Assembly (NCBI GenBank): GCA_016182605.1
Contig: JACPGE010000112.1
Coordinates: forward strand, 1 to 47,840
Direction of reading: 5' to 3'
Length of the DNA stretch: 47,840 bases
Source of the DNA: Candidatus Hydrogenedentota bacterium
Lineage (GTDB): Bacteria; Hydrogenedentota; Hydrogenedentia; Hydrogenedentales; JAEUWI01
Each line of letters begins with the position of its first letter. Positions within the stretch are counted from its first letter, which is position 1. Position numbers and translations under genes: made by a program. Below are positions 7,035 to 36,154 of the stretch, one piece after another. Below the pieces are notes generated by a model. The model worked only from the letters and a program-made list of their open reading frames with translations. It ran no database searches and was not told where the DNA came from.

Positions 7035-7165
7035 CGCTGCACGCCATGCGAAGCCCCCGCCTACGCTTGCATTCCTGCCGTACTTGTTCGCATGATGCTG
7101 ACGTGCTTGTGCACAGGCAACTCGTTCAAGGCCATGTCCGCCCTCGACTCGAAGAGCATTACCTC

Positions 7166-8026
7166 ATGGAACCAACCGAATCGCCCGCTTCCCTGGACTT
7201 GCGCGCCATCCCGATCCCTTCGCCCACCGCGTTTCTGACCACCGAGCACTACCATCAGCAGCCCTATCGTGCCAGCGCGCTGTCAAATGAAGCGCTGGTG
7301 CGGCCCTGCGAAGCGGGCCTTCTCTGCAACAGCTACTATGCGATCGAGAATGGGACAAACCCGCCGTATGGCCGCCCGATTCAAGGCGCCCTCAAGGAGG
7401 TCTGGTGCCGGGAGAGCGTTGCGGAAAAATTGCTCGCCGTAAACCGGAGTCTGGCCGCGTACCATGTTCAATTGATGTTGCTGGATGGTTTCCGCACACT
7501 GGAATGTCAGCGCGATCTTTGGCAATTCTTCCATGTGCAGACGCGAAGTGAAAATCCTGCGCTGGGCGATGAGGCACTGGATCGCATCGTGAGCCAGTAT
7601 TGCTCGCGTCCCGTGGCCCCCAATCCCGCCGATCCGGAAACGTGGCCCACGCACTGCACCGGCGCGGCGATCGATGTGACCTTGTGCAGTCTGGATTCCG
7701 CGGAGGCCCTTGATCTGGGATCGCCCTTTGATGACGCCCATCCAGTCAGCCACTCGTGCAGTCTGGAAGATGACCTTCGCGTCCAGACAGACGACGCAAT
7801 GCGGGACAAGGCGGCAGCACGCCGCGAGGCCGCTCGCAACCGCCGGCTCCTCTACTGGTCGATGACTCTGGCCGGGTTTGCCAACTATCCCTTTGAATGG
7901 TGGCACTTCGATTGGGGCAATCAGATGTGGCTGCAAAACAGGCTCCCCGGCCAACCGGGCACTGAGGCGCCAGAGAGAGCGTGGTATGGATGCGCCGATT
8001 TCAGCCTGCACCGTGGCGGCCTGTAG
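7166..8026 (+). CDS. D-alanyl-D-alanine dipeptidase, VanX-like (M15D)
   Basis: 286 residues from the ATG at 7166; the frame is open 150 nt further up, but that part does not resemble the family. It has the VanX/DdpX-type metallopeptidase signatures. LDGFR (Arg110) corresponds to the VanX transition-state Arg. HCTGAAIDVTL supplies zinc ligands His163 and Asp170. EWWHFDWG supplies the catalytic Glu244 and third zinc ligand His247. GSPFDD and RRLLYWSM also match. No signal peptide is present, so it should act in the cytoplasm and hydrolyse D-Ala-D-Ala. It converges on a D-Ala-D-Ala ligase gene 23 nt away. The pairing suggests control or recycling of the dipeptide pool. No vanH or VanRS homologue is nearby. 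Confidence 0.88.
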   Translation: MEPTESPASLDLRAIPIPSPTAFLTTEHYHQQPYRASALSNEALVRPCEAGLLCNSYYAIENGTNPPYGRPIQGALKEVWCRESVAEKLLAVNRSLAAYHVQLMLLDGFRTLECQRDLWQFFHVQTRSENPALGDEALDRIVSQYCSRPVAPNPADPETWPTHCTGAAIDVTLCSLDSAEALDLGSPFDDAHPVSHSCSLEDDLRVQTDDAMRDKAAARREAARNRRLLYWSMTLAGFANYPFEWWHFDWGNQMWLQNRLPGQPGTEAPERAWYGCADFSLHRGGL

Positions 8027-8049
8027 CGTGTACGTCGCGGAGCCCCGCC

Positions 8050-9294
8050 TCAGCCGGAGAAGATGGCTTTGAACTCGCCCTTGGACTGAAGCGCGCGCCG
8101 GGCCGCGTGGCGCTTGAGGGCGCCGTCGATCTGATGGCTCAGTTGTTCCGTATAGAAAAGATACGGCGCGTTCTCGTTGAAGAGATAAAAGGCCAGTGAA
8201 CCGGGAATCGTGTTGATCTCGTTGAAGTACGCGCGCTGCGTGCTCTTGTCCACGATGAAATCCACGCGTGCAACACCGTGGGCGTGGATGGCCGTAAAGA
8301 TGGCTGCCGCGTACGCGCGCACCGCCTCTTTCAATTCCGTGGCAATGTCCTGCGGATCGATCACCCGATCGAGTCCCGCCATGCCATCCGCCGGGCCCTG
8401 ATCCCCGGGTGTCTTGCCGCCGCGCATGTACTTGTCTTCATAGGACAAGACCCCGTCCTTCGAATCCGGCCGGGGCATCTCCACGACCGAAGCTGTGGGC
8501 GGTTCCCCCTCCAGGACGGCAACATTGAGTTCCATGATGTCCTGGATCTTGGGTTCGACGATGGCGTGGGTATCGTACTTAAAGACGCGGACGAGTCCTG
8601 CGGCGAGTTCGGATTCGTTGTTGCACGCGCTCACGCCGATGCTGGAGCCCAGGTTGCAGGGCTTCACGAAGAGTGGGAATCCGCCCAGCGTGTCTTCGCT
8701 CAGAATGGCGTCCAGCACGCCCCGGAGATTGGCGCGGGCTTCGGATCGGCCCACGGTGAGCCCCGGAAGCACGGGTATGCCATGTGCTTGTGCGACCTTC
8801 TTGCAGAGCCCTTTGTCCATGCCCACGGCGGAGGCGGGCACGTTGGAACCGGCATAGGCCACAGAGGCCAGTTCGAAGAGGCCCTGGATGCTACCGTTCT
8901 CCCCCGTGCCGCCGTGCAGGACGGGAAAGAAGACATCGACAGAAATGCGGGCCTCCGCGCTACGGTTGAAAGAAAACGCAGGCTTGGGGGCAATGGTGGT
9001 CAGACCGCCCTGTCCGGGAACGGGCAGCAACGCGACCTGCGTGCAGCTTTCCAGTATCGCAGGATTCTGCGCGACGCGGCTGAAGAAGGTTTTGTCCGCG
9101 AGTTCCTTGCCGGTGTACCACAGGCCGTTCTGCGCGATATAGACCGGAATCACCTCGAAGCGAAGCTGATCCATTGCGGCGATCACCTGGGTGCCGGAAA
9201 TGACGGAGACCTCGTGCTCGGGAGAGTCCCCCCCGAAGACGACGGCGACACGAATACGGCGGTCTGCGCTGTTCACGTTCACGTTATCCTGCAT
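8050..9294 (-). CDS. ddl: D-alanine--D-alanine ligase family (ATP-grasp)
   Basis: 414 residues. The N-terminal domain has VVFGGDSPEHEVSVISG, and LHGGTGENGSIQGLFEL holds the conserved Glu/Ser region. The ATP-grasp part contains FVKPCNLGSSIGV, DFIVD and FNEINTIPGS. The residue equivalent to E. coli DdlB Tyr216 is kept (SYEDKY), which points to D-Ala rather than D-lactate as second substrate. It is longer than DdlB (about 306) because of an insertion around KYMRGGKTPGDQGPADGMAG and a C-terminal extension, as in some clostridial and VanC-like ligases. It lies 5 nt after the membrane MurF-like gene, in the same operon, and faces the VanX-like gene. It probably makes the D-Ala-D-Ala used by the MurF-like partner. 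Confidence 0.92.
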   Translation of the reverse strand: MQDNVNVNSADRRIRVAVVFGGDSPEHEVSVISGTQVIAAMDQLRFEVIPVYIAQNGLWYTGKELADKTFFSRVAQNPAILESCTQVALLPVPGQGGLTTIAPKPAFSFNRSAEARISVDVFFPVLHGGTGENGSIQGLFELASVAYAGSNVPASAVGMDKGLCKKVAQAHGIPVLPGLTVGRSEARANLRGVLDAILSEDTLGGFPLFVKPCNLGSSIGVSACNNESELAAGLVRVFKYDTHAIVEPKIQDIMELNVAVLEGEPPTASVVEMPRPDSKDGVLSYEDKYMRGGKTPGDQGPADGMAGLDRVIDPQDIATELKEAVRAYAAAIFTAIHAHGVARVDFIVDKSTQRAYFNEINTIPGSLAFYLFNENAPYLFYTEQLSHQIDGALKRHAARRALQSKGEFKAIFSG

Positions 9295-9299
9295 TTCAA

Positions 9300-10940
9300 T
9301 TAGAATCGCTTTGGGGCCTCGTGTATGTCACTCAGATCGTTCTCCAACAGCACGATTGGTGGCGCCTCCCGGGAAGCATACTCTTCAAGCGCTTTCAGGG
9401 CGGCGGGCATGGACTCGTGGACCACAACGGCGCTCTCGGGCATGCCGCCTTCCAGCAGCGCACGGGCCCAGGTGGCGCGGTTGACGGATTCCACAAGCAG
9501 GATCCTGCTGCAGATTCTGGCCGCGCGTTGTGCCACGTTCCGATTCTCCTCCTCCTGACACGGGCCCAGTTCGATCATGCCCGGCGTAACGAGGATTTTA
9601 TCCTTCGCCGGGTATTGCTCCAGCACGTCCAGTGCATCCATGAACCCCTTCGGGTTCGAATTGTACGCGTCGTTGAGGAAGCTCATCTTCTTCGACTTGG
9701 TCAGGCTGAGCCGGTTGTCCACGGGCTCGATATTGGCCAGGACGGCCGCGGTGTAAAAGGGCTCCGCGCCGAGCGCACAGGCCATGGTGAAGGCCCCCAG
9801 CATGTTAGAGACCGCGTTCTTGCCGAACATGCAGGTTTGCACGGGATAGACCGCGCCCTTCCAATGCAGTTGGAACGCGATCCCCTTGTCGTTCATGAGC
9901 AGATCGGAGGCGAGACAGTCCAGATCGCCGGTGTCTTCAAAGCCGTACAGCAGGGTGGTCTTCTTGGGAAATTCCGCGGCGATGCGCCGCGCACCGGCGT
10001 CGTCACCATTGCAGACCAGGATCCCGTCATCGGGCAGACTGCGCGCAAGTTCCGATTTTGCCTGGTACACATTCTCGTGGGTGCCAAATCGCTCCAGGTG
10101 CATGACGCCCACCGTGGTGACGATTCCGGCCGTGGGGCGGACGAACTCGCAGAGCCCCGCGATGGAGCCTTTCGTGTAGGCGCCCATCTCAAACACGGCA
10201 TAACGGTGCAATGCAGAGAGCGTGACGCGAATCTCGCGCGTGATGCCCATCGTGGTGTTGATGCTCTTGGGCGGTGCGAAGGCCGGTTCGAGGGCTTGCG
10301 TGAGCAGGCCGGCAAGGATCGACTTCGTGCTCGTCTTGCCATAACTTCCGGTCACGCCGATAACGATCGGGGCAACGGCGCGCAGGCGTTCCACCGCCTC
10401 GTCCTTGAGCTGGCGTTGAAGGCGCTGTTCGTGCGGCTGGAGCACCCGGACGGCCAGCGTCAATAGCAGCGGGCACACAGGGTGACACATCAGTTGCGCG
10501 ACCCACAGGGAGGCGAGCACATTCAACTGGAGACCGTAGTGAAGGAGCGCCATGATCGCGGCAAGCAGCACGAGATTGAAGAGCAGTGCCGTCCGTTCAA
10601 TGCGTTTTGCGCGCGGCGTCCGCACCAGCGGCTTTCGCCCAGTCTTCCGGGGGTCGCCTTCGAATCGAACCCAGGCATGGAGCGCCAGCGCGCCGAAGAA
10701 GTAAAACCATCGGCCGGTAATCCCCTCCACCAGCAGCGCGCCCGCGAGCACGGCGAGGGCGGTGGTCCATCCCCGGGTATCGAAAGACTTGTTTCCCGTC
10801 AGCCACCGGAAGAACCGGTGCGGCGTATAGTCTTCCTGTTGAAAATAGTGCAGGTAGCGCCGGGTGCGGTGGAGGATGAAAATGACCCCGCTGCACAACC
10901 CGAGCAAGAAGAGCAGCGTCTGTGTCCAATCGTTAAGCAT
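9300..10940 (-). CDS. MurF-like Mur ligase fused to an N-terminal membrane domain
   Basis: 546 residues. About 165 N-terminal residues form four or five hydrophobic helices (about 7-23, 60-75, 77-90, 117-135 and 143-166). The Mur ligase core follows: P-loop GVTGSYGKTSTK at 195-206, SINTTMGITREI, FEMGAYTKGSIAGL and a C-terminal domain with NDAYNSNP. These match UDP-MurNAc-tripeptide:D-Ala-D-Ala ligase (MurF) rather than MurC, D or E. Ordinary MurF is cytosolic and about 450 residues, so the membrane domain is unusual. The gene overlaps the upstream hydrolase gene by 8 nt and is 5 nt from ddl. The substrate could be the usual Park-nucleotide precursor, a lipid-linked one, or another carboxylate acceptor. 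Confidence 0.87.
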   Translation of the reverse strand: MLNDWTQTLLFLLGLCSGVIFILHRTRRYLHYFQQEDYTPHRFFRWLTGNKSFDTRGWTTALAVLAGALLVEGITGRWFYFFGALALHAWVRFEGDPRKTGRKPLVRTPRAKRIERTALLFNLVLLAAIMALLHYGLQLNVLASLWVAQLMCHPVCPLLLTLAVRVLQPHEQRLQRQLKDEAVERLRAVAPIVIGVTGSYGKTSTKSILAGLLTQALEPAFAPPKSINTTMGITREIRVTLSALHRYAVFEMGAYTKGSIAGLCEFVRPTAGIVTTVGVMHLERFGTHENVYQAKSELARSLPDDGILVCNGDDAGARRIAAEFPKKTTLLYGFEDTGDLDCLASDLLMNDKGIAFQLHWKGAVYPVQTCMFGKNAVSNMLGAFTMACALGAEPFYTAAVLANIEPVDNRLSLTKSKKMSFLNDAYNSNPKGFMDALDVLEQYPAKDKILVTPGMIELGPCQEEENRNVAQRAARICSRILLVESVNRATWARALLEGGMPESAVVVHESMPAALKALEEYASREAPPIVLLENDLSDIHEAPKRF

Positions 10941-11757
10941 GCTGGCGCTCGTGAATTCTAATGCTGGAATCGCAGGCGGGGTCTTCGGTCACGCGGGACG
11001 CATGCGCGAGCCGGGGCATCAGACGCGTCTTGATGTACGTGGCGCACAGATCCGGCATCGTGCCAAAGGGAACGTGCCCCGCTCCAGGCAGGATAACCAG
11101 ATCGGCGCCCGAGATGAGTTCCGAATACTTCCGTCCCATTTCGCACGGCGTCTCGGTATCGTGTTCGCCCCAAAGCAACAGCGCAGGGGTCTGAATGGTT
11201 CTGGCCACGGCGCTCAGGTCTTCATTGACCACTTTGACGAGGACGGGCCGCATCAGGCCGGCGTTCCGGTAATCCACGGAACCGAAGCGCGCTTCGTGCC
11301 GCTGCTTGAGCCGGGTGCGCACGAAGAAATCGATCCAGGCCGCGGACTTGCCCAAGAAGCGGACATACTTCAACCGGACACGTTTCCGCAGCGTTTTTGT
11401 GGTGGGAATTCCGGCCGAGGCAATGAGCACCAGTCCGCCGACCGCGTCGGGATAGTTGCCAGCCAACTGCACGCACACGCGCCCGCCGAAAGAATGGCCG
11501 GCCATCACGGGTCGCTCCAGGGCGTTGGATTTCAGATAAGCGTGGACATAGTCTGCGTATTCCCTGCTCCCCCACACCTCGCCGGGCATCGGAACGCCGC
11601 CAAAGCCGGGCAGGGTCAGGGAGTGAACCTGGCCGAAGGTGGCGAGCAGTTTCGCGAGCGGGCGCATATGATTCAGAGTGCATCCCCATCCATGGAGCAA
11701 CACAAACACCTGCCCGCCGCTGCCGAGCACCTCTTCCGTCTTGTTGTCGATCGCCAT
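10933..11757 (-). CDS. Alpha/beta hydrolase of the MurF-Ddl operon
   Basis: 274 residues, no signal peptide. Motifs: LLHGWGCTLNHM (oxyanion loop), GHSFGG (nucleophile Ser), WGEHD (Asp) and GAGHVPFG (His). It is the first gene of the operon that continues into the membrane MurF-like ligase (8-nt overlap) and ddl, which suggests a linked role in handling D-Ala esters, peptidoglycan precursors or related amides. A basic patch (TLRKRVRLKYVRFLGK) lies in the cap. Substrate is not assignable. Upstream, 180 nt away, is the leftover copy of the hisC 3' end, so before insertion of the OLD cassette this operon would have lain directly behind hisDC. Confidence 0.85.
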   Translation of the reverse strand: MAIDNKTEEVLGSGGQVFVLLHGWGCTLNHMRPLAKLLATFGQVHSLTLPGFGGVPMPGEVWGSREYADYVHAYLKSNALERPVMAGHSFGGRVCVQLAGNYPDAVGGLVLIASAGIPTTKTLRKRVRLKYVRFLGKSAAWIDFFVRTRLKQRHEARFGSVDYRNAGLMRPVLVKVVNEDLSAVARTIQTPALLLWGEHDTETPCEMGRKYSELISGADLVILPGAGHVPFGTMPDLCATYIKTRLMPRLAHASRVTEDPACDSSIRIHERQHA

Positions 11758-12023: not shown

Positions 12024-13826
12024 TCAATCTTCCGTCGTCTCTTGGTGAGAATGCGCGCGCTTGAACAATGCATATAACAAATCCAACTTCTCGACAACCT
12101 CTTGTGGAACCAGAGCTTGGTCACACAGTGGAACAAGTTGGTGTAATTCACCTTTCCGCAGGAGCATGGGAGAACCTAGAGCATTGCTCAAACCTCTGAA
12201 AAACTCCTCGGCGACATCGCTAAGTTTAATACGTTCGGTTTTTGTTTCCCAAATGAGGCGCGCCGCGTTCGGGGGGCTCGTGCGCCATATCTCCAAATCA
12301 CCAGCGTCCCCCTCAAAGACGCGCACAAGCAATGTCTGGTTCAAGACTTCTTCAATCTGTGTCGAGAACCCGTCGAAGAGTTCTATATCCACGAATCTCT
12401 CAAGTGCGTAACGGCGGAGTACATCCGGCACTATGAAATAGTTCTCGGCCTCGTATCGGCGCCAATGGACAATCTTCAATCCATCTTCCTCTCCATCTTG
12501 GCGATTGCGCCCATCGTTGTCCAGGATGGCTAGACCCTGAAGCCCAGGAACAATTCCCTTTAAGGCACGGAAGTGATGCTTGGGGGTTATCCCGAAGCCG
12601 CCTTCCACCCGCTTCAACTCGCTTTCCAATGACTTTAAGGGATAGTTGTCCTTGACATAGAAGGAATTGATTCTCTCATCCCAAATATCGGCCACCGGAT
12701 GCTGCAAATGACGCGCCAACGCGCGCAACATGTCGATATCCGTTCCCCCTTCAACGTAAAGTACGTAACCCCGCTCTTGAGCCCGAATATAATGTTCCGC
12801 GCCGAAATGCTTTAGCGCAGCCCGAATGTCCTTCTTGGCCGCCAAATCATCCGCCTTGCCCTCCACAAGCAGTGTCAAATTGGTATCCAGCGCCTCCTCC
12901 AAAATCACTTCTGAATGGGTTACGATCACTACTTGGGAAGCATTTGCGCTTGCGATGTCTCGAAGCAATACATAGACCTGCTTTTGCCGCAACAATTCCA
13001 GATGTGCGTCCGGTTCATCCACCAGCAATACACTTCGGCGATGCGAATAGAGGTACGAGAATATCAGCAGCATCTGCTGAAAACCCCTTCCGGCCATGGC
13101 TACGTCCAGCTGTTCCTTAACCGCAGTCTGTTTATAATGCAGCTCTATTGCGCCCCGTGTGGTCTCTTGGGGGTAACCCAATTCCACCGAGAACAGACGG
13201 TTCATGAGTTCGACGATGCGCTTCCAGTCCTCTGGTGAGTCTTGGGCAACCAACAGGCACAGATTACGAAGTACCTGTGCCGTCTGTCCTTGGCCAAGCA
13301 ATACTCCAATTCGCCCCGGCTGCAGAATTGGCTCCTCTGTCTCCAAGCCAGACATAGGATAAAGCAATTCTACATTAATGCTTGCTGCGTGCTTGAGAAC
13401 ATCCATCCTTTTTAGAGCTTCGTCATCCGGGCTGCAATAGATGAGTTCATCGCCTTGATTGCGAAAACGCATCGTAACGGGCTCGACCCGGTTTTCATAC
13501 GATACCCCAACGGTTATGAGCAACGGAATGTCTTTGTTCTGTAATCGAACCGATGTATTGTGCCAGTAGTATCGGGTGCGTTGAACCGGGACGGAGACAA
13601 TATTGAGGCGATTCAACGCAGTTGCCGTCCGCTCGGATGCGCTAGAGTCTTTACGCACATCGAACCAAGTCTTGAGCGCTTGCGACCAGAGAGCAATGGC
13701 CTGAATCGCAGTTGTCTTGCCACAGTTATTTGGCCCAATTATGACTGTGGGATGTTCCAGCTCGATCCTTTGGCGATCCCCAAAGCGCTTGAAATTCTCA
13801 ATCTCCAGATACTGCAACAGTCGCAT
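12024..13826 (-). CDS. OLD-family AAA ATPase with C-terminal TOPRIM nuclease domain
   Basis: 600 residues from the ATG at 13824-13826, which has GAGAGGAA upstream; an earlier in-frame ATG at 13853 lies within 2 nt of the -10 box. The ABC-type ATPase half has P-loop GPNNCGKTT (31-39), a signature-like AGRGFQQML (245-253), Walker B LLVDEPDAHL (267-276) and VTHS (H-switch, about 302-305). The TOPRIM half has LYVEGGTD (Glu359), AILDNDG (DxD-type metal site) and WRRYEAENYF. OLD proteins are ATP-dependent nucleases, and many act in phage defence (class 1 alone; class 2 as Gabija with GajB). No UvrD-like or reverse transcriptase partner is adjacent, so this would be a solitary class 1-like member. 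The cassette position strengthens a defence role. Confidence 0.87.
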   Translation of the reverse strand: MRLLQYLEIENFKRFGDRQRIELEHPTVIIGPNNCGKTTAIQAIALWSQALKTWFDVRKDSSASERTATALNRLNIVSVPVQRTRYYWHNTSVRLQNKDIPLLITVGVSYENRVEPVTMRFRNQGDELIYCSPDDEALKRMDVLKHAASINVELLYPMSGLETEEPILQPGRIGVLLGQGQTAQVLRNLCLLVAQDSPEDWKRIVELMNRLFSVELGYPQETTRGAIELHYKQTAVKEQLDVAMAGRGFQQMLLIFSYLYSHRRSVLLVDEPDAHLELLRQKQVYVLLRDIASANASQVVIVTHSEVILEEALDTNLTLLVEGKADDLAAKKDIRAALKHFGAEHYIRAQERGYVLYVEGGTDIDMLRALARHLQHPVADIWDERINSFYVKDNYPLKSLESELKRVEGGFGITPKHHFRALKGIVPGLQGLAILDNDGRNRQDGEEDGLKIVHWRRYEAENYFIVPDVLRRYALERFVDIELFDGFSTQIEEVLNQTLLVRVFEGDAGDLEIWRTSPPNAARLIWETKTERIKLSDVAEEFFRGLSNALGSPMLLRKGELHQLVPLCDQALVPQEVVEKLDLLYALFKRAHSHQETTED

Positions 13827-13854
13827 GCGCGGCTTCCTCTCCAGTTGTCCCATC

Positions 13855-13901: not shown

Positions 13902-14960
13902 CTATTTCGCCGCGCCCAAGATTCCGTCAATGGCCGCCAAGAGTGCGTCGCATTCCGCATCGGTGCCAATCGTAATGCGCAAGGCGTTCTCCAGCCTGCG
14001 CGCGCTGAAATACCGCACGAAGATCTGTTGCGCGGAAAGGGCCTGAAAAATGTCCTTGGCAGACGGTGTGCCGTTCCAGTGGGCGAGCAAAAAATTGCTT
14101 TGGGATTCGGGGACACGGAAACCGCGCGCGACTAGTGCTTCGCGCAGACGCTGGCGCGTGGCGCAGACCTTGGCCACACTCGCAAGCATGTGATCGTAAT
14201 CGGTGATGGCGGCGAGGGCGGCGGCCTGGCTCGCGGCGTTCATATTATAGGAGTCTTTGGTCTTCAAAAACTCGCGGACCAGTTGCGGCTGGGCCTTCAT
14301 CGTGCCCACACGCATGCCGGCCAGACTGAAGGACTTGGAGAAGGTCCGCATGACGATGACATTGTCGAAACGATCGGGAAAGTCCATGCAGGTGTCGGCA
14401 GCGAAATCGGCGTACGCCTCATCTATCACGACAATGCCCTGAAAACGCGCACAGAAATCCGCCACCGCTTCCCTGGGCGCGGCCACGCCGGTTGGGGCAT
14501 TGGGCCGGGTGAGAAAGCAGAGCCGCCCCGACGCGCTCATGAAGTCCGGCGTCAATTGAAAGTCATCATCGAGATCGACGTAGTGCAATTTTGCGCCATG
14601 GAGAACGCAGAGGATCTCGTAGAGGGAATAGGTGGGATAGGTAGCCACGACGGTGTCGCCGGGATCGACAAAGGTCCGCAAGACCATGGCGAGAAGCTCA
14701 TCCATGCCGTTGCCCGCGAAGATCCAGGACTCATCCGGAGCGCCATAGCGCTGTGCGCAGGCGCGGCGGAACGCCACGGAAAGCGGGTCCGGATATTTCC
14801 GGAGCGCGTCCGCGGAGAGATTGCGCAGGGCTTCCAGCACGCCGGGCGCGGGCGGATACGGATTTTCGTTGGTGTTCAGCTTGATCAGGTTGCTGCCCTG
14901 CGGCTGCTCACCGGGCGTGTAGCCCTCAACGTCTTTCAGGATCTCGCGCACAAATCTCAC
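13902..14960 (-). CDS. hisC: Histidinol-phosphate aminotransferase
   Basis: 352 residues, normal length. Class I/II PLP aminotransferase acting in histidine biosynthesis (imidazole acetol phosphate to histidinol phosphate with Glu). Motifs: LNTNENPYPP near the N-terminus, RPNAPTG (substrate and cofactor contact), VVIDEAYADF with the pyridine-N Asp, TFSKSFSLAG with the PLP Lys209, and LRITIGT near the end. It overlaps hisD by 4 nt (14957-14960), so the two are coupled. The last codons (AAK then TAG) sit at the junction with the OLD cassette. The displaced copy at 11938-11982 suggests the gene formerly ended AAPGA. The change falls outside the catalytic core, so function should be intact. Confidence 0.95.
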   Translation of the reverse strand: MRFVREILKDVEGYTPGEQPQGSNLIKLNTNENPYPPAPGVLEALRNLSADALRKYPDPLSVAFRRACAQRYGAPDESWIFAGNGMDELLAMVLRTFVDPGDTVVATYPTYSLYEILCVLHGAKLHYVDLDDDFQLTPDFMSASGRLCFLTRPNAPTGVAAPREAVADFCARFQGIVVIDEAYADFAADTCMDFPDRFDNVIVMRTFSKSFSLAGMRVGTMKAQPQLVREFLKTKDSYNMNAASQAAALAAITDYDHMLASVAKVCATRQRLREALVARGFRVPESQSNFLLAHWNGTPSAKDIFQALSAQQIFVRYFSARRLENALRITIGTDAECDALLAAIDGILGAAK

Positions 14961-16261
14961 AAGCGCACCTCAATCGAGCGGGCGTGTGCCTGAAGCTCTT
15001 CCGTATTCGCAAAAGTCATGATGTCGTTTGCTTCCCGCTGCAGCCGCTCGCTCGTGTAGTAGAGCACACTGGTAACCTTGCGGAAATCTTCCGCCGTGAG
15101 CGGCGACGAGAAACGCGCCTTCCGCCCCGTGGGCAGCGTGTGGTTTGGTCCGGCGTAGTAATCGCCGACGGCCACAGGCGTGTTCGCCCCGACCATGATG
15201 GCGCCCGCGTTGTGTATTTTTTCGAGCAGCTTGCGCGGAAAGTCCGCCTGTATACTCAGGTGTTCCGGGGCATACAGGTTGGTAATCGCCACGGCCTCGT
15301 CCATGTTGCGCGTGCGAATCAGCATGCCGCGGTTGTCCAGCGACTTCTTGATGATGTCCCTGCGCGGCAGATTCGGCAGTTCTGCGGCAATCCGCGCCTG
15401 CACCGCCGCAATCAACTCGGCAGACGGCGTAACGAGCAGGCACATGGCCTCTTCGTCGTGTTCCGCCTGGGCCAGCAGCTCCGCGGCCACGTGGGCGGGA
15501 TTCGCCTTCTCGTCGGCGAGCACGAGCACTTCGGAAGGCCCTGCCTCGGAGTCGATCTCGACGCGTCCGCGCACGATGGCCTTGGCCGCGGTGACGTAGG
15601 TATTGCCTGGGCCGGTGATCTTGGTTACCGCGGGAATGGTGGCCGTGCCATAGGCGAGCGCGGCGATGGCCTGGGCGCCGCCAATACGGAATACCCGGCT
15701 CGCACCGGCGATACGGGCTGCCGCCAGGGCCACGGGGTGAATGTCTCCATTGAAAGTGGGCGGCGACACCATGATAATTTCTTTTACGCCGGCCACGCGC
15801 GCGGGTGTGATGTTCATCAGCGCGGTGGAGGGATAGAAGGCCTTGCCACCAGGCACGTAGACGCCCGCGCTTTCCACGGGGGTCACGCGCTGCCCAAGAA
15901 CGGTGCCGTCGTCCAGGGTTTCTTCCCAGGATTCGCGCAGGTGCTTGGAATGAAATCGGCGGATATTTTCGTGCGCACGTTCGAGAATGCGCACCAGATT
16001 CTTGTCGACCCCGGCGAGGGCCTTGTCCATTTCTTTGGGCGACACCTCGAAGCGATCCGGGGTCAGGGCCACGCCGTCGAAACGCTCGGTAAACTCGGCC
16101 ACGGCAGCGTCGCCATTCTTGCGCACGGCTTCCACGATCCAGCGCGCCTGCTCCAGCTTCTCCTGGATCGAACGGTCGGCGTTGGCCGCGTCGGAGAGAC
16201 CGAGAATGAACTCGTCCAGTTCCTTGCGCACGGTGTCGTTGCTAATGTCGATGTGTTTCAT
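14957..16261 (-). CDS. hisD: Histidinol dehydrogenase
   Basis: 434 residues, full length. Zinc- and NAD-dependent enzyme that oxidises histidinol to histidine in two steps. Motifs: GVYVPGGKAFYPS, KITGPGNTYVTAAK (NAD site), EAGPSEVLVLAD, AEHDEEAMCLL (zinc and catalytic region) and GDYYAGPNHTLPT (catalytic His and zinc ligand). It lies 35 nt downstream of murA and overlaps hisC by 4 nt, forming murA-hisD-hisC. Placing hisDC after murA is a recurring arrangement in several phyla. No his leader or attenuator was seen. Confidence 0.96.
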   Translation of the reverse strand: MKHIDISNDTVRKELDEFILGLSDAANADRSIQEKLEQARWIVEAVRKNGDAAVAEFTERFDGVALTPDRFEVSPKEMDKALAGVDKNLVRILERAHENIRRFHSKHLRESWEETLDDGTVLGQRVTPVESAGVYVPGGKAFYPSTALMNITPARVAGVKEIIMVSPPTFNGDIHPVALAAARIAGASRVFRIGGAQAIAALAYGTATIPAVTKITGPGNTYVTAAKAIVRGRVEIDSEAGPSEVLVLADEKANPAHVAAELLAQAEHDEEAMCLLVTPSAELIAAVQARIAAELPNLPRRDIIKKSLDNRGMLIRTRNMDEAVAITNLYAPEHLSIQADFPRKLLEKIHNAGAIMVGANTPVAVGDYYAGPNHTLPTGRKARFSSPLTAEDFRKVTSVLYYTSERLQREANDIMTFANTEELQAHARSIEVRL

Positions 16262-16296
16262 GATCGCTTCCGCCGGTGCGTACCGTCCCCTGATTG

Positions 16297-17550
16297 TTAC
16301 GTGCGAACCCGCTCGATGTCCGCGCCCACGCCCGCCAACCGCTCTTCGATGCGCTCGTAGCCGCGATCGATGTGATAGACCCGCGAGATCGCGGTTTCAC
16401 CCCGGCTCGCGGCGAGCCCCGCGATGACCAGCGCGGCGCTAGCGCGCAGATCCGACGCCATGACCGGCGCGCCGCTGATGGCCTTCACACCGCGCACAAT
16501 GGCAGCGTTGCCGTCGAGTCCGATGTCCGCGCCCATGCGGTTCAACTGCGCCAGCTGCATGAAGCGGTTTTCGAAGACCGTTTCCTTGATAATGCTCACC
16601 CCTTCCGCGCACGTCACCGCCGCCATGATCTGGGCCTGCAGGTCCGTGGCAAAGCCTGGATAGGGCAGGGTCGTAATATTCACCCCGCGCAGTCCGTTCG
16701 CCGCGTGCGCGCGGATGCGGCTGCCATGCACCTCCACCGTCGCTCCCATCTCCCGCAGCTTGTCGAGAAAGACCGGCAGGTGATCCGCGTTGGCGTTCAA
16801 CACCGTCACGTCGCCACGCGTCGCCACGCCCGCGGCGAGGAAGGTCCCCGCCTCAATACGATCGGGCATCACCACGTGTTCCGCGCCGCCGAGCGCATCG
16901 ACCCCCACAATGGTGATGAGGTCGGTGCCCGCGCCGGAGATCTGGGCGCCGAGCGCGTTCAGGAAACGCGCCAGGTCTTCGATCTCGGGTTCGCGCGCCA
17001 CGTTGGCAATGCGCGTGACCCCGGGGGTCATGCAGGCGGCCATGAGCAGATTCTCGGTCGCACCGACGCTGGGAAAGTCGAGAGAGACGTTTGCGCCCTG
17101 GAGCGGCCCCTCCGCCACCACATAACCGTCTTCTATGCGTATTTTGGCGCCGATCGCTTCGAGGCTCTTGAGATGGATGTCCACTGGCCGGCTGCCTATC
17201 GCGCAACCGCCCGGCAGAGAGACCCGCGCCTTGCCGAAGCGGGCCAGGAGCGGGCCCAGGACGAAGAACGAAGCGCGCATCCGCCGGACCAGGTCATATT
17301 CGGCTTCCGGCTTGTTCAGCCCGCCCGGGTCGAGGGTCATCGTGCGCCCGGTGAAGTCGATCTTCATGCCCATGTCCGAGAGAAGCTTGTCCATGGAGAA
17401 GACATCGTGCAGACACGGCACGTTGTGCAGAATGCACGGGGCTTCCGCCATCAGCGCGGCCGCCATGAGCGGCAGCACGGCGTTCTTGGCGCCCCGCACG
17501 TGAATCACACCATTCAACGGCTTGCCGCCGCGTATTAGAATCCTGTCCAC
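16297..17550 (-). CDS. murA: UDP-N-acetylglucosamine 1-carboxyvinyltransferase
   Basis: 417 residues from a GTG at 17548-17550 preceded by AGAGGAG. The frame stays open through the upstream secG region, but that part is a low-complexity shadow. It catalyses enolpyruvyl transfer from PEP to UDP-GlcNAc, the first committed step of peptidoglycan synthesis. Lys22-Asn23 lie in GAKNAVLP, and the active-site Cys116 lies in LPGGCAIGSRPVD (Cys-type, therefore expected to be fosfomycin-sensitive). MPDRIEAGTF and GYPGFATD-like regions are present (LPYPGFATDLQAQ). A terminator separates it from secG upstream; hisD follows 35 nt downstream. Confidence 0.96.
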   Translation of the reverse strand: MDRILIRGGKPLNGVIHVRGAKNAVLPLMAAALMAEAPCILHNVPCLHDVFSMDKLLSDMGMKIDFTGRTMTLDPGGLNKPEAEYDLVRRMRASFFVLGPLLARFGKARVSLPGGCAIGSRPVDIHLKSLEAIGAKIRIEDGYVVAEGPLQGANVSLDFPSVGATENLLMAACMTPGVTRIANVAREPEIEDLARFLNALGAQISGAGTDLITIVGVDALGGAEHVVMPDRIEAGTFLAAGVATRGDVTVLNANADHLPVFLDKLREMGATVEVHGSRIRAHAANGLRGVNITTLPYPGFATDLQAQIMAAVTCAEGVSIIKETVFENRFMQLAQLNRMGADIGLDGNAAIVRGVKAISGAPVMASDLRASAALVIAGLAASRGETAISRVYHIDRGYERIEERLAGVGADIERVRT

Positions 17551-17569
17551 TCCCGGCTCCTCTGTATTG

Positions 17570-17601
17570 AAAAAAGGCCCAAAGCCTGATGCTTTGGGCC
17601 T
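17570..17601 (-). terminator. Rho-independent terminator after secG
   Basis: Perfect 11-bp stem (17575-17585 with 17591-17601; AGGCCCAAAGC paired with GCTTTGGGCCT) and a 5-nt loop. On the minus strand it is followed by six T residues (17570-17575 read in reverse). It lies between the secG stop and the murA start, so murA expression depends on read-through or a promoter hidden in this short gap. Confidence 0.9.
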
Positions 17602-17632
17602 CCCTGAACTCGTACAACTTCTACGGCGCGCC

Positions 17633-18178
17633 TTATTGTGCGGGCGTGCTGGCGTCCGCCGGGGTTTCCGCCGCGGGCTGCACCACTTCCGCATCGGGAA
17701 TGGCGGCTTCCACGGGCGGCGTGGCCGCATCCGGCGCGGGCGCCGCAGGGGATTCCACCACGGTGACAGCGGGGGCTTCCCCAGGCGTTTCCGCAGGCGC
17801 CGCTGCCGGGGTGGCAGCAGCGTCGGGAATGGGCTGCCCACTGAGCAGGGCGTCGACGGCCGCGCTTGGGGCCGATTCGCTGGCTTCGAGCAATTCGGGC
17901 GCGGTACCGCGGCCCACCTTGCCGGAGAGCATCGACATGATCAGGGCGAGGAACATGAAGAGCCCCGCCATGGTATAGGTAATTTTCTGGGGGAGACTGC
18001 GCGCGGAGCGGGGGCCAAAGACGGCCTCAGAACCCGGGCCCGCGCCAAAGGCGCCCGCGAAGCCGACCCCTTTGCCCTTTTGCAGCAGCACCACGATGAT
18101 CAGACCAAGACAACTGGGGACGTACAAGAACATGATCAGCCACCAGAGGGTCGTCCAACTAAAAATCGCATCCAACAT
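17633..18178 (-). CDS. secG: Preprotein translocase subunit SecG with long Ala/Pro-rich tail
   Basis: 181 residues, against about 75-110 for typical SecG. The first 100 residues carry the family features: two membrane helices (about 11-33 and 67-86), the LLQKGKGVGFAGAFG loop and GSEAVFGPRSARSLPQKIT. The remaining 80 residues are a low-complexity Ala/Pro/Glu/Val tail (AATPAAAPAETPGEAPAV and similar) with no fold signature. SecG is the accessory subunit of the SecYEG channel in the inner membrane. It lies 51 nt downstream of tpiA, a common pairing (tpiA-secG), and is followed by a strong terminator. Confidence 0.93.
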   Translation of the reverse strand: MLDAIFSWTTLWWLIMFLYVPSCLGLIIVVLLQKGKGVGFAGAFGAGPGSEAVFGPRSARSLPQKITYTMAGLFMFLALIMSMLSGKVGRGTAPELLEASESAPSAAVDALLSGQPIPDAAATPAAAPAETPGEAPAVTVVESPAAPAPDAATPPVEAAIPDAEVVQPAAETPADASTPAQ

Positions 18179-31393: not shown

Positions 31394-32686
31394 TTATGCG
31401 AGCGAGCGCAGCAGGGCGGTGCACTGCGCGGTGAATTCGCGGCCCACAGCGGGCGTGAAGGGCGGCAGGTCGAGAATCTTGGGCACGGCAATGGCCGCAT
31501 ATTCGTTCTTCTCATAAGCTACCGGGTCGGGCAGATAGCCCACGAAAGTTCCGGTGTAACCGATGCAGAGGGTTGTGGCAAAAGGCGCATCGCGGCGCAG
31601 TGCCAGACCGTAGCAGGAATACAATTCGCCGGGATGAAAGAGCAGGCCCAAGCTGCCGAGACTCACCGCCGTCACGGGCGCCTCCAGTGCGGGCGTGTCC
31701 TGTTTCCAGTGTTGTGCGGACTCAAACCAGGCCTGAGCGAAGGCCGCGTCCACCCAGGTATCCTTCGTGCACTGCTCGGGGTGCGCGCGGTACAACGCCA
31801 GTTCTGCCTGCAAGCGGCCATAGTCGAAAGGCAACTTCACCTGCGCAGAAGCCACGCGAAGTGCGCCAAGTTCAATCAGTTCGGCGTGGGTGGAGGCGTG
31901 ATACAGGGCTGAGGCTACCGCGCTTGCAGTCTCTTCGAGATCGCCCTGCCACGGTGTGCCGTCGCCCGGATTCACATCGCCAATGTGTCCCTGGAGAAAC
32001 GCGGGCCGCACGCCCACGGCACTCTCCAGCCGTTGCGCAACGACCCCCGGCCAATCCGCGCCTGCCTGGTCATCCGCGTGGCATACGGGATGTGCGCAGA
32101 AGTGATACCACGCAATGTTTCCCCTGGCCTCTTCGCGCTGAAACTGAAGCACATGCAGGTCCGTGTCGAGCCATCGTTCGGCGTCGCTTGAATCCGGCCC
32201 AAATTCCGCATTGGTCTTCCAGGTTTTCGCGGTCCGGTTAAAATTTCCGCCCGTTACCGTGGCCTTGCCGAGATAGGCATCGGCCTCGGCCAGATCCGCC
32301 TTCGCCTGCACCACGGCCTCCACGGCACTCGCAACAACACGGTCCCGGTAGTCCGCGTCCACCGCGCCCCATTGGCGGAATGGAATGAACGTGGGCATGC
32401 TGTGCGTGTGGGTCGCGGTGACCTGCACGTGCGCCGCGGGAATTCCCGTGCGCGCCTCGGCCTGCTGTTGAACGGCCTGGGTGAAGGCGAGGGACAACGC
32501 GCACAGGTCGATGGAGACGATGGCCAGCATTTCCCCATCCACCTCGAGCACGAGTGCGCGCAATTCGGTTGCATCCCGTATCGCCGCAATGCGCCGTTCC
32601 TGGCCCACGGGCTTGTGGAAGCCGGCCATCTCTATGCCCAGGGGCGGGGTGATGTCGATACGTGCATGTCCGGCGCGCAGGGGCAT
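31394..32686 (-). CDS. Neutral/alkaline ceramidase-fold protein, probably not a ceramidase
   Basis: 430 residues, no signal peptide. The N-terminal pattern RIDITPPLGIEMAGF, VTATHTHSMPT (HxH zinc ligands) and FCAHPVCH follow the neutral ceramidase N-terminal domain. In true neutral ceramidases the nucleophilic Ser lies in a GDVSPN motif; here the region reads GHIGDVNPGD, with Asn instead. The C-terminal immunoglobulin-like domain of ceramidases is also missing, as the protein ends soon after LPPFTPAVGREFTAQC. It is probably a zinc amidohydrolase of another specificity. It lies 114 nt upstream of the phosphoesterase pair on the same strand. Confidence 0.82.
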   Translation of the reverse strand: MPLRAGHARIDITPPLGIEMAGFHKPVGQERRIAAIRDATELRALVLEVDGEMLAIVSIDLCALSLAFTQAVQQQAEARTGIPAAHVQVTATHTHSMPTFIPFRQWGAVDADYRDRVVASAVEAVVQAKADLAEADAYLGKATVTGGNFNRTAKTWKTNAEFGPDSSDAERWLDTDLHVLQFQREEARGNIAWYHFCAHPVCHADDQAGADWPGVVAQRLESAVGVRPAFLQGHIGDVNPGDGTPWQGDLEETASAVASALYHASTHAELIELGALRVASAQVKLPFDYGRLQAELALYRAHPEQCTKDTWVDAAFAQAWFESAQHWKQDTPALEAPVTAVSLGSLGLLFHPGELYSCYGLALRRDAPFATTLCIGYTGTFVGYLPDPVAYEKNEYAAIAVPKILDLPPFTPAVGREFTAQCTALLRSLA

Positions 32687-32749
32687 GGTGCTCTCCCGGC
32701 AGGTTGTGGTGCGTACTGCCGCGAATCATCCTAATGATGCGCGTGGAAT

Positions 32750-32881
32750 GTGTCAAGGCCTTGGCTGGACACACGGGAAACCGGTACGATTTCTCTGGGC
32801 GAACATGAGCCTGCCAAGAGCATCGTTGCCCACGTTCTGGAGCGGCTCCGGGTCAAGCAGGACGTGACCGGAGAGGCCTGA
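32750..32881 (+). pseudogene. Possible C-terminal gene remnant (43 codons)
   Basis: A plus-strand frame reads LDTRETGTISLGEHEPAKSI and continues VAHVLERLRVKQDVTGEA to a TGA. It has strong G/C third-position bias, unlike its other frames. No ribosome binding site precedes the GTG at 32750. The N-terminal part is not recognisable. It may be the leftover tail of a deleted gene between two minus-strand genes. Family unknown. Confidence 0.25.
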
Positions 32882-32887
32882 GGCGGC

Positions 32888-33862
32888 TCAGTCGCGCAAT
32901 CGGCGCATGCCCTCGTCGATACTGACGGCGGGCACATAGCCCAGGTCCCGCTTCGCGGCATCGATATTGAACCAGCTCGCGCTGCCGAGAATCTGTGCGC
33001 CCACGCGCGTCATGGGCGGCTCGTCTTTCTTGCCCAGGAGGGTGTAGGCCGCTTCGAGCGCCGCGCCCAGGGTGTAGAGCAGCGGGAGCGGCATCGTTTT
33101 CTTCACGGGGGGCAGACCGTGTGCGGCGAGGATCTTGTCCAGCAGCGCCCGCATCGGGATCGGTTCGCCATTACTGATGAAATAGGCTTTGCCTGCGACC
33201 GCTGCCCCGGGCGACAGGGCGTCGCACGCGAGCACGTGCGCGGTTGCCGCGTTGTCGATGTAAGTCACGTCCACGCGGTGGCTGCCATCGCCCACGACAA
33301 ACAAGCGCCCGGTCTCCGCCAGCTTCACGATACGTGGAATGACATGCGGATCGCCTTTGCCCCAGATAAGCCGCGGACGAAGCGATACGGTGGCGAGTTC
33401 CAGGCCGTTTGCCGCAAGTACCGCCGTTTCGGAGAGCGCCTTTGTCTTGGCGTAGTGGCTGCTGAAGCGCCTGGGATAGGGCGTGGACTCATCGATGCCT
33501 TCCTGATTGGCGCCGGTGAAAATACTGCTGGGCGAGCCGGTGAAGACAAGCCGTCCCACGCCCTGTTTGCGGCAGGCCGCGATCACATTCTCCGTGCCGG
33601 TGACATTGGCTTCGTGGTATTCGGGGTAGGGTCCCCAGATGCCGGCCTTCGCCGCGAGATGGTAGACAACGTCGCAACCGGCGGCCGCATTGGCCACTGC
33701 GGCGGCATCCGTGAGCGCCGTGGACACATGTTCCACGCCCAAGGCATCCAACTCGGGGTAGCTGCCGCGCGAGAGCGATCGCACCGCGTCTCCCCGCGCC
33801 ACGAGCCGCTGGATGAGGGCCTTGCCCAGAAAACCGCCGCCGCCCGTTACGAGTGCCCGCAT
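32888..33862 (-). CDS. NAD-dependent epimerase / 3beta-hydroxysteroid dehydrogenase-like
   Basis: 324 residues from the ATG at 33860-33862 with GAGGAG upstream. Extended SDR: VTGGGGFLGKAL (NAD loop), VVYHLAAKAGIWG, FTGSPSSIF, and catalytic Tyr and Lys in HYAKTKALSE. RPRLIWGKGDPHVIPRIV and RVDVTYIDNAATAHVLA match the 3beta-HSD/OleD-like subgroup, which acts on beta-hydroxy acids or sterols in OleABCD hydrocarbon synthesis and related routes. OleA, OleB and OleC are not in the window. It follows lspA by 11 nt. It could serve lipid or isoprenoid metabolism, and the neighbouring pfaD-like gene hints at fatty-acid chemistry. Confidence 0.87.
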   Translation of the reverse strand: MRALVTGGGGFLGKALIQRLVARGDAVRSLSRGSYPELDALGVEHVSTALTDAAAVANAAAGCDVVYHLAAKAGIWGPYPEYHEANVTGTENVIAACRKQGVGRLVFTGSPSSIFTGANQEGIDESTPYPRRFSSHYAKTKALSETAVLAANGLELATVSLRPRLIWGKGDPHVIPRIVKLAETGRLFVVGDGSHRVDVTYIDNAATAHVLACDALSPGAAVAGKAYFISNGEPIPMRALLDKILAAHGLPPVKKTMPLPLLYTLGAALEAAYTLLGKKDEPPMTRVGAQILGSASWFNIDAAKRDLGYVPAVSIDEGMRRLRD

Positions 33863-33873
33863 GGAAGTTCTCC

Positions 33874-34422
33874 TCACGTCTCCGGATCTTCGGCCCGCGT
33901 GAATTCCTGCTGCTGGCGGTACGCCCGCGTGAATTCCAGTACAAACACCAGCACCAGGCCGGCGACAATCGCCACGTCGGCCACATTGAAAATGCCGGTG
34001 CGGGGTTCCCACCCGTAGATACTGACCCAAGGCAGGCCCAGATTCATGAAGTCGATCACGCGGCCATCGTTAACGATGCGATCGATCAGATTGCCGATGC
34101 CGCCGCTGAGGATGAGCGAGAGCGCGACGGCCAGCATGGTCTCCATCTTGGGCTTCGCCACCAAAAAAACGGCCACGGCGAGCAGGACCAGGCTGTTCAC
34201 GCCTGTGAGCAGCCAGAACCGGAGCGAATCCGACAGCGTGTCGCCCAGGCTTAGAAAGGCGCCTGTGTTCTCCGCATAATGAAAGCGGAACAGATCGTCC
34301 AGGAAGATGATCGGCGGCCGGCTGGCGAGGGTGGCGCGCGCCACGTACTTCGAGATCTGATCGACAATCACCGAGCTGAAGACGACTGTAGAGATAAGTG
34401 TGTACCGGTACGTATTGTTCAT
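33874..34422 (-). CDS. lspA: Lipoprotein signal peptidase (signal peptidase II)
   Basis: 182 residues with four membrane helices (about 9-22, 75-92, 97-113 and 147-165). It cleaves prolipoproteins at the lipidated Cys in the inner membrane. Catalytic aspartates lie in GGIGNLIDR and FNVADVAI; VDQISKYV and ENTGAFLSL are the other conserved blocks. It is preceded within 6 nt by the pfaD-like stop and followed 11 nt later by the dehydrogenase, so it is part of that operon. At least two lipoproteins in this window would be its substrates. Confidence 0.94.
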   Translation of the reverse strand: MNNTYRYTLISTVVFSSVIVDQISKYVARATLASRPPIIFLDDLFRFHYAENTGAFLSLGDTLSDSLRFWLLTGVNSLVLLAVAVFLVAKPKMETMLAVALSLILSGGIGNLIDRIVNDGRVIDFMNLGLPWVSIYGWEPRTGIFNVADVAIVAGLVLVFVLEFTRAYRQQQEFTRAEDPET

Positions 34423-34428
34423 GGCCGC

Positions 34429-36021
34429 CTATTCGAATGCTGCGGCAAGGGACTTGCCTGAGACCGGCTTCCACCCGAAGACCTCCACAGGCACCGGCAC
34501 GCCTTGCAGACGCAGGCCGGTCGCGCGCAGGTGCAGGGCGGCGCCGAAAAGAATGTTGTGCGCCACGGCAACCACCGTGCGGTTCTCCGTCTCTTCCAGT
34601 GTGGTTCCCGCCGCCCACTCATTGAAGGCGCCCATCGACGGCCCGCACCAAATCTGGTAATCGTCTTCCCGGCCATCCTGGCCCACGTTGGCCCAGCGCG
34701 AGGATTGCCCCAAATACCACCGGAACGCGAGCGCCATCTTGTGGCGCGGATTCTGCTCCGCCTTTTCCACCTGCGCGGGATCGCGCTCCTCGAAGAAGGC
34801 CCGGGTCTGGGCCCAGATCTCCGTCAGGGGCGCCTGAAAAATCTGTTCTTCGATCTTTTGCCGCTCGTCGGCCGGCAGGGCATCGATGCTATCGTAGGCG
34901 CGGTACAATTCGTAGAGTTTGGCGCCACGCACCACGAAGCGCGTCCCCTTCTTCAGCACCTGCACCGTCACGCCCATCTCAAACATATCGGCCGCGGGCG
35001 CCTGACCCACGTCCGTTTGCGACGCCTTGGCCAGCATCGCCCGTACCTTGTCCGAGGATCCGGATTCGACGCAAGCCTGGTTCACCGATCCGGTCACGAC
35101 GTAGGCGGCGCCCATCGCAAAAGCGGCCGCGGCCGCCGCTGCGGTTCCAATGCCGCCACCGGCGCCCACACGCAACTTGCATGCGTAGTTGTATTGCGCC
35201 GCCATCTCGTCACGCAGCGCGATCATCGCGGGGAGTACCGCGGGCATCGGCCGGTGATCCGTGTGGCCGCCGGAATCCGCCTCGACCGTCACGTCCTGCG
35301 CCACGGGGATTTCCTGCGCCATACGCGCCTGATCTTCGGTAATGTGGCCGGATTCCACCAGCTTTCGCACCATCTTTTCCGGTGGCGGAGCAAAGAAGCG
35401 GCGCGCCACTTCCGCGCGCGACACCTTGGCGACAACGTGGTTGGGCGCCACAACACGGCCCGAGGCATCGCGGTGGATGCCATGCACGCGGTATTTCACC
35501 AGGGGCAATGACAGACTGAGATAGGCCGAGGCCTCCACCAGCCGCACACCATACTTGATATACAGATCGGCGACGGCTTCCTGCCAGAGGGGATCGTTGG
35601 GAGAATTGATCAGGTTAAAACCAAAGGGAAGGCCCTTCATCGTTTCTGTCAAGCGCTTGCAGGCAGCCTCGATGCGCGCGGGGGACAAGCCCGCGGCGCC
35701 GAAGAAGCCCAGCATGCCCGCACGGCCCATCTCCTCCACAATCGCCTCCGAGGCGATGCCATTCGCCATGGCCCCGGTGTAGTAGGGATATTTAAGGCCG
35801 TGATCGCGCAGAAAGGTGGGATCGCCGAGGTTCGCAAAGGTGAGCGCGGGCGCAATCGCGCGTATGGGGATGCCCGTTCCGCCCACACTACCGCCCTGAC
35901 CGTACACGAGCGCGCCTTCTTTCGCGCACACATACAGCGGGACGTCCAAAGCCGAAAGCCCGTCCAGAAGGGAGACTTCCTTGCCGCCTTGCCAATAGCC
36001 CGCGTAGCCGTTTTGAGTCAT
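34429..36021 (-). CDS. pfaD: PfaD-family enoyl reductase (PUFA/polyketide type)
   Basis: 530 residues from the ATG at 36019-36021 (AAGGAAA upstream). FMN-dependent TIM barrel of the nitronate monooxygenase/PfaD group: GYWQGG at the N-terminus, YTGAMANGIASEAIVEEMGRAG, FGFNLINSPNDP, VEADSGGHTDHRP (FMN and catalytic His region), LRVGAGGGIGTAAAAAAAFAMGA, VTGSVNQACVESGSSD, and a long C-terminal part. PfaD acts as a trans enoyl reductase with PfaABC in polyunsaturated fatty-acid synthesis and in some polyketide pathways. No ketosynthase or acyl-carrier gene is present nearby, so this copy is isolated, coupled instead to lspA and a 3beta-HSD-like gene. Confidence 0.92.
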   Translation of the reverse strand: MTQNGYAGYWQGGKEVSLLDGLSALDVPLYVCAKEGALVYGQGGSVGGTGIPIRAIAPALTFANLGDPTFLRDHGLKYPYYTGAMANGIASEAIVEEMGRAGMLGFFGAAGLSPARIEAACKRLTETMKGLPFGFNLINSPNDPLWQEAVADLYIKYGVRLVEASAYLSLSLPLVKYRVHGIHRDASGRVVAPNHVVAKVSRAEVARRFFAPPPEKMVRKLVESGHITEDQARMAQEIPVAQDVTVEADSGGHTDHRPMPAVLPAMIALRDEMAAQYNYACKLRVGAGGGIGTAAAAAAAFAMGAAYVVTGSVNQACVESGSSDKVRAMLAKASQTDVGQAPAADMFEMGVTVQVLKKGTRFVVRGAKLYELYRAYDSIDALPADERQKIEEQIFQAPLTEIWAQTRAFFEERDPAQVEKAEQNPRHKMALAFRWYLGQSSRWANVGQDGREDDYQIWCGPSMGAFNEWAAGTTLEETENRTVVAVAHNILFGAALHLRATGLRLQGVPVPVEVFGWKPVSGKSLAAAFE

Positions 36022-36154
36022 GAATCTCGATTTCCTTCGGGGAGTGAACGTGGCTGCGCCTGCCCGGCGCATGCGCCCCATTGGGAGCAAACTGTTGGGC
36101 ACGAGTATACGAAAGCCTCGAAAGGGGATGCAAAGACGGGTGCGCGCACCCCCG

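Follow-up and report, generated by a model that had tools for sequence, protein, structure and literature searches.

A membrane-anchored MurF-like ligase in a conserved hydrolase-MurF-Ddl operon appears to take the place of canonical MurF in a Hydrogenedentota genome

The stretch of DNA analysed here, referred to as the window, is one entire contig (JACPGE010000112.1, 47,840 nucleotides, C54) of assembly GCA_016182605.1 from a Candidatus Hydrogenedentota bacterium, whose genome of 6.76 Mb lies on 130 contigs with an estimated completeness of 97.9%. The locus of interest in it is a cassette of three genes, whose products are an alpha/beta hydrolase, a ligase resembling MurF with a membrane domain attached (membrane MurF) and a D-alanine--D-alanine ligase (Ddl), together with a dipeptidase gene that faces them. 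When the open reading frames of the window were scanned with Pfam and NCBIfam profiles (28 frames for Pfam), the first gene of the operon was found to be the hydrolase of 274 amino acids (10933..11757, minus strand; Abhydrolase_6), which has the triad Ser89-Asp200-His228 and a GSxDY motif. It is followed on the same strand by the membrane MurF of 546 amino acids (9300..10940) and by the Ddl of 414 amino acids (8050..9294; NF002528 and the N and C domains of Pfam Dala_Dala_lig), in which the catalytic residues are intact. Convergent with ddl is the gene of a VanX/DdpX-type D-alanyl-D-alanine (D-Ala-D-Ala) dipeptidase of 288 amino acids (7160..8026, plus strand; Peptidase_M15). The coordinates and the Pfam matches confirm the four genes, the 8-nucleotide overlap between hydrolase and MurF and the 5-nucleotide gap between MurF and Ddl that a first-pass annotation, made from the sequence alone, had described. 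This arrangement is not due to chance because the trio of hydrolase, MurF and Ddl recurs across phyla.

In the membrane MurF, residues 191-539 are the MurF ATPase and C-terminal ligase core, with Mur_ligase_M at residues 196-386 (E=4.5e-32) and Mur_ligase_C at 410-523, and residues 1-190 (10371..10940, minus strand) are a membrane domain that replaces the N-terminal domain by which canonical MurF binds UDP-N-acetylmuramic acid (UDP-MurNAc). The Pfam scan of this protein found no domain N-terminal to residue 196, and its match to the murF model TIGR01143 began at model position 61 and reached 210.2 bits, below the cut-off of 288.6, compared to 378-391 bits for the canonical MurFs of its relatives. 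Hydropathy and an AlphaFold2 model made from 58 aligned sequences (mean predicted local distance difference test score, pLDDT, 91.7; predicted template modelling score, pTM, 0.91) place helices at 2-35, 55-74, 79-93, 109-136 and 141-189 ahead of the ligase core, and we read these as four transmembrane segments, the last of which is predicted to continue into the P-loop, in keeping with the four or five membrane helices counted earlier. The fold neighbours of the core found with VIA were MurFs (3zl8, Z 39.8, root mean square deviation 3.9, 371 residues aligned; 4qf5, Z 38.8). In the model the basic stretches RTRRYLH and RKTGRKPLVRTPRAKRIER lie on the same side as the core, and since they share one side the positive-inside rule would make the ligase core cytoplasmic.

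When 57 full-length membrane MurF homologues were aligned (alignment A1), Q34, Y38 and T108 of the membrane domain were invariant and R110 and P169 were conserved in at least 90%, and most of these residues adjoin the predicted cytoplasmic edge. In the core, the P-loop TGSYGKTSTK (residues 197-206; 10323..10352, minus strand), which is the signature of the family, and H281 are invariant and K295, E297 and N429 nearly so; K295 corresponds to the lysine that is carbamylated in Mur ligases, N429 lies within the donor motif DAYNSNP, and there is a C-terminal signature, ENDLPD. The UDP-MurNAc-binding domain PF01225 was found in none of the 58 members taken into the Pfam domain scan, compared to five of six canonical controls, and no Pfam family was common to the membrane domains of these members, nor was there a match to any Pfam, NCBIfam or PDB family. 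A search of PDB folds with the membrane domain alone gave at best E 0.36 with Foldseek and Z 5.2 with VIA, values that are within the noise of helical bundles and leave a known fold possible. When the membrane domain was compared to plasmids by tblastn nothing real was found, and with the full-length MurF tblastn matched other Mur ligases over the core alone.

Searches of the genome with Mur_ligase, Mur_ligase_M and TIGR01143 yielded, besides the window protein, only MurC (contig C91), MurD and MurE (C47), Mpl (C62) and FolC (C90), their identities being assigned from motifs and neighbours, and with TIGR01143 no canonical MurF was found in the genome. In all eight relatives whose entire dcw stretch was compared, murF lies between murE and mraY. 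Here the dcw genes are contiguous on C47 in the order ftsI-murE-(386 bp)-mraY-murD-ftsW-murG, and the 386-bp interval has no murF remnants in any frame. Among 68 genomes of the phylum, which in the sample belong to one order, the membrane domain was matched in this genome alone, and the MurFs of the relatives are mostly ordinary proteins of 450-480 amino acids; it follows that the cassette is of outside origin and that the native gene was lost. In a phylogenetic tree the window MurF groups with proteins of Chlamydiae, Chitinophagales and Obscuribacterales (SH-aLRT 100) and then with those of Alphaproteobacteria, a placement that does not follow organismal kinship. The cassette was acquired horizontally.

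The Ddl of the cassette scored 281 bits against NF002528 (cut-off 262) and 246.7 against TIGR01205 (cut-off 245.65), and its catalytic positions are invariant in 60 cassette Ddls, in which the C-terminal motif is NTIPGSLAFYL. It has the Y..KY loop with the omega-loop Tyr, so that the Tyr expected for D-Ala-D-Ala is kept as had been noted at first, and it reached 193 of 495 bits with the VanG model and 122 of 775 bits with the VanA model. By these motifs and scores it is of the D-Ala-D-Ala type and not of the D-Ala-D-Lac or D-Ala-D-Ser type. The genome has an ancestral Ddl-like open frame as well, of 346 amino acids at C1:68319-69251 beside a dapF-like frame (loci L199 and L011), which scored 196 bits; a Ddl above the family cut-off is present in 19 of 24 relatives searched, mostly at about 300 bits. 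When the C1 copy was aligned to those of relatives, SxEHEVSL was found changed to RARHAASL, HGxxGEDG to HGPYGSDG, GSSVG to GLTQG, RSDF to QSDF and EVNTVPG to KLETVPG, and the FFDYxAKYTPGAT loop was gone, all of these being motifs that the cassette Ddl retains. The C1 copy may be a recent pseudo-enzyme or a protein that is gaining a new role. Since it is eroded and the cassette Ddl is intact, the cassette appears to displace both native functions, and we hold it to be very probable indeed that native murF and ddl were displaced by it. Because the murF slot is empty and the ancestral Ddl is without catalytic residues, it is likely, as far as the sequence tells, that this genome depends on the cassette alone for both D-Ala-D-Ala and MurF activity.

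Homologues were sought with a DNA pattern for TGS[FY]GKT[ST]TK over the GTDB collection, which gave at least 117 loci; what follows on gene order and distribution refers to the loci listed, the great majority of which encode the membrane form. They come from Bacillota, Bacteroidota, Actinomycetota, Chloroflexota, Rhodothermota/Balneolota, Poribacteria, Synergistota, Spirochaetota, Chlamydiota, Melainabacteria (Obscuribacterales), Pseudomonadota, Mycoplasmatota, Methylomirabilota and several phyla of the candidate phyla radiation. The order is hydrolase, MurF and Ddl on one strand, with the hydrolase upstream of the membrane MurF in 67 of the 69 loci that have upstream room and Ddl present in 47 of the 62 that have downstream room, and hydrolase-membrane MurF-Ddl is a conserved operon in more than 10 phyla. 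In one Balneolaceae metagenome-assembled genome (G084, locus L124) the membrane MurF has neither a linked hydrolase nor a linked ddl, and no strong Ddl was found in it by TIGR01205. Tandem extra soluble MurF-like paralogues of about 460-480 amino acids, matching the model from position 35-37 and belonging neither to canonical nor to membrane MurF, were seen in Haloplasma and a Bacillales genome (G085:C65:57411-61216; G212:C1:3034435-3046374). The ddl-murF set on plasmid pDSM15939_2 of Anoxybacillus amylolyticus (L051), a mobile peptidoglycan gene set of ddl, soluble murF, a murG-like gene and alr, was considered as a relative of the cassette and rejected, as its MurF is of the ordinary soluble type. 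Among viral contigs the ddl pattern had no match and the P-loop pattern one irrelevant match.

Cassette loci led to 43 genomes, of which 33-35 were without canonical MurF and 8-10 had a full-length MurF of canonical type; isolates are among those without it, namely Gracilibacillus, Aquibacillus, Peptoniphilus and Salinivenus. When 150 genomes of the Gracilibacillus order with completeness of at least 95% were sampled, canonical MurF was present in 139 and the membrane form in 10 of the other 11. Nine of these were newly tested and scored 655-673 bits to A1, the tenth being Gracilibacillus itself, and eight canonical genomes that were tested matched A1 over the core only. The sole genome of this order with neither MurF above threshold has a MurF-like match at 58-417 in a frame of 717 amino acids (G165:C22:142549-143658). 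In the Obscuribacterales order about 18 genomes were membrane-only, 29 canonical-only, 2 had both and 4 had neither (Fisher p ~2e-8, which is descriptive only as the genomes are related, and three of the membrane calls are from shorter frames). The two forms are thus nearly mutually exclusive in two orders. In Poribacteria the cassette fills the murF slot itself (L079, ftsI-murE-hyd-murF-ddl-mraY) and in Methylomirabilota the order is murF-ddl-mraY (L168), and this placement in dcw together with the near-exclusivity connects the cassette with peptidoglycan synthesis of the ordinary kind.

The hydrolase almost always accompanies the membrane MurF, and its Ser-Asp-His triad is invariant in 84 homologues; that it edits or repairs the stem peptide or its ester is a guess in which we place little confidence. 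The dipeptidase matched Pfam M15 with E=1.9e-18 and scored below the cut-off of the VanX equivalog model, and when aligned to VanX 1r44 it was found to keep the H/D and E/H motifs, THCTGAAIDVTL and EWWHFD, and so it looks active. Of 117 other loci only two have it beside the cassette, those of Aquibacillus (L122) and Obscuribacterales (L127), where it is of the same subfamily; none of 23 relatives has it, nor do most of the cassette genomes tested. It probably travelled with the cassette as an accessory, perhaps with a role in D-Ala-D-Ala turnover like that of DdpX, and its sharing by Obscuribacterales and the window supports a common donor lineage. The proposal that the locus makes and erases D-Ala-D-Ala finds no support in this distribution, and it is the trio and not the set of four genes that is conserved elsewhere. 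What was found, then, is that the genome has no canonical murF and no other Ddl with catalytic residues and that conserved neighbourhoods lack the dipeptidase, two outcomes that the first-pass annotation had named as refuting its reading, the former as the sign of a plain housekeeping copy; the result is a housekeeping route, yet one of a different kind and not mundane, as the housekeeping MurF itself is replaced by a membrane form.

Compared to known systems, the membrane MurF shares with canonical MurF (TIGR01143; 3zl8, 4qf5, 4cvk, 1gg4) the ATPase and C-terminal domains, the P-loop, the K295 position, DAYNSNP, the fold and, as the Poribacteria cassette shows, the dcw slot, whereas it differs in its 190-residue membrane domain, in a TIGR01143 score below cut-off, in the ENDLPD signature and in being nearly always tied to the hydrolase. 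MurT/GatD, the lipid II isoglutaminyl synthase (9sq9), contains a Mur-ligase relative that is not known to have the UDP-binding domain and whose substrate is a muropeptide carried on a lipid, and by analogy it may be regarded as the closest functional precedent for a lipid-linked acceptor. MurT, however, is not known to have membrane helices and has a different C-terminal domain and GatD as partner, and the membrane MurF reached only 28.5 of 800 bits with the NCBIfam MurT model. In PgsB/CapB-type ligases a Mur-ligase core is attached to the membrane; going by their description, the window protein is set apart by being MurF-like in best family and fold, by its D-Ala-D-Ala donor motif and by its Ddl partner. 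Clusters of vanI or vanG type have a Ddl-family ligase and a VanX-type dipeptidase, sometimes with MurF, and to that extent resemble this locus. The Pfam scan of 28 window frames showed no vanH or VanRS genes, as had been said at the outset, and with a ligase of D-Ala-D-Ala type and a dipeptidase that is not conserved with the cassette a van-type resistance cluster was rejected.

A probable explanation of the whole, to which we give moderate confidence, is that a horizontally acquired operon replaced murF and ddl and that D-Ala-D-Ala is added at the membrane to a lipid-linked tripeptide. Of this, the gene set and its conservation, the core fold, the missing UDP-MurNAc-binding domain and the displacement are borne out by sequence and genome comparison, and the donor and the acceptor are inferred. 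In known enzymes a Ddl supplies D-Ala-D-Ala, which a core of MurF type couples to the stem tripeptide. In the proposed mechanism the cassette Ddl would make D-Ala-D-Ala, and the MurF core, which four transmembrane helices would keep at the cytoplasmic face, would use ATP to activate the tripeptide carboxylate and would join it to D-Ala-D-Ala, a donor to which the motifs and the operon point. The acceptor would be a polyprenyl-pyrophosphate-linked MurNAc-tripeptide, that is lipid I or II formed from the tripeptide by MraY/MurG, so that the addition would come after the MraY step. This identity of the acceptor, suggested because the domain that grips UDP has given way to a membrane domain whose juxtamembrane residues include invariant ones, we rate as slightly better than evenly balanced. 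Several points weigh against the explanation as a whole. MraY classically sees the pentapeptide, and Ddl is unlinked in 15 of the 62 loci with room for it. Both MurFs occur together in Nocardioides, in Bacteroidota (as frames of 830-845 amino acids, the size of MurF-Alr fusions), in a Chlamydiae metagenome-assembled genome and in others, and in such genomes the membrane MurF may have a distinct role. Many of the cassette genomes, moreover, are metagenome-assembled with completeness unstated.

It is possible, although we think it the less probable course, that the membrane MurF does the canonical job on soluble UDP-MurNAc-tripeptide and that its membrane domain serves only to keep the enzyme next to MraY, MurG or MurJ for channelling of the product. 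The core fold and the donor-binding YNSNP motif are the same as in canonical MurF, the membrane form replaces the canonical one for one and adjoins mraY in some genomes, and Mur enzymes form complexes elsewhere (MurE-MurF, 8f5d); however, the domain that holds the nucleotide in structurally known MurFs is absent in 58 of 58 homologues, and the domain in its stead, with invariant Q34, Y38 and T108, is more than a hydrophobic anchor. A side pathway running beside normal murF and ddl, for an alternative peptidoglycan, a lipid-peptide or repair and recycling, would suit the several Bacteroidota, the Nocardioides and the others that have both forms, but it is very improbable here given the absence of canonical murF, the catalytically broken ancestral Ddl and the near-exclusive distributions in two orders, and an accessory second MurF in this genome was rejected as well. 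Thus the earlier suggestion of an alternative membrane pathway stands in so far as the enzyme probably acts at the membrane and fails in so far as it is not an extra route. Still more improbable is that murF is simply missing from an assembly of 130 contigs and 97.9% completeness and that the cassette is accessory, since the dcw genes are contiguous on C47 with a clean murE-mraY slot and the erosion of the ancestral Ddl independently points the same way.

Around the cassette a few other genes were recorded. Abutting it at 12024-13853 (minus strand) is an AAA ATPase gene, OLD/Gabija/AriA-like, in a stretch with a G+C content of 0.515 compared to about 0.61 in the surroundings; it is a candidate for a role in defence and may have been imported together with the cassette. 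Upstream of the cassette, and on its strand, are hisC, hisD and murA (TIGR01072, 541 bits) at 13902-17841, so that a second peptidoglycan gene is close by. Further away, at 31394-36384 (minus strand), are consecutive genes for a neutral ceramidase-like protein, a 3-beta-hydroxysteroid dehydrogenase-like epimerase and a PfaD-family polyunsaturated fatty acid/polyketide protein.

In the open-licence literature no description of the membrane MurF was found, and one may exist elsewhere; the cassette is widespread but unnamed. The steps of MurF and Ddl are regarded as cytoplasmic and nearly universal, and the two enzymes as targets for antibiotics. Here is a membrane-integrated replacement that has spread over many phyla by horizontal transfer, that receives only a weak MurF score from family models and that differs in its substrate-binding domain. 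These data suggest that in many bacteria the addition of D-Ala-D-Ala may happen at the membrane and not in the cytoplasm. The broader statement, that in a large, unrecognised fraction of bacteria the substrate transferred by MraY is MurNAc-tripeptide and the stem peptide is then finished with D-Ala-D-Ala by a MurF integral to the membrane, we put forward as a proposal with even chances. If it is true, the textbook order of MurF before MraY would not be universal. The replacement itself predicts a different behaviour towards MurF and MraY inhibitors, and with it a conserved hydrolase joins the core of peptidoglycan synthesis. The textbook assumption that UDP-MurNAc-pentapeptide is the last soluble precursor becomes testable in cultured Gracilibacillus and Aquibacillus.

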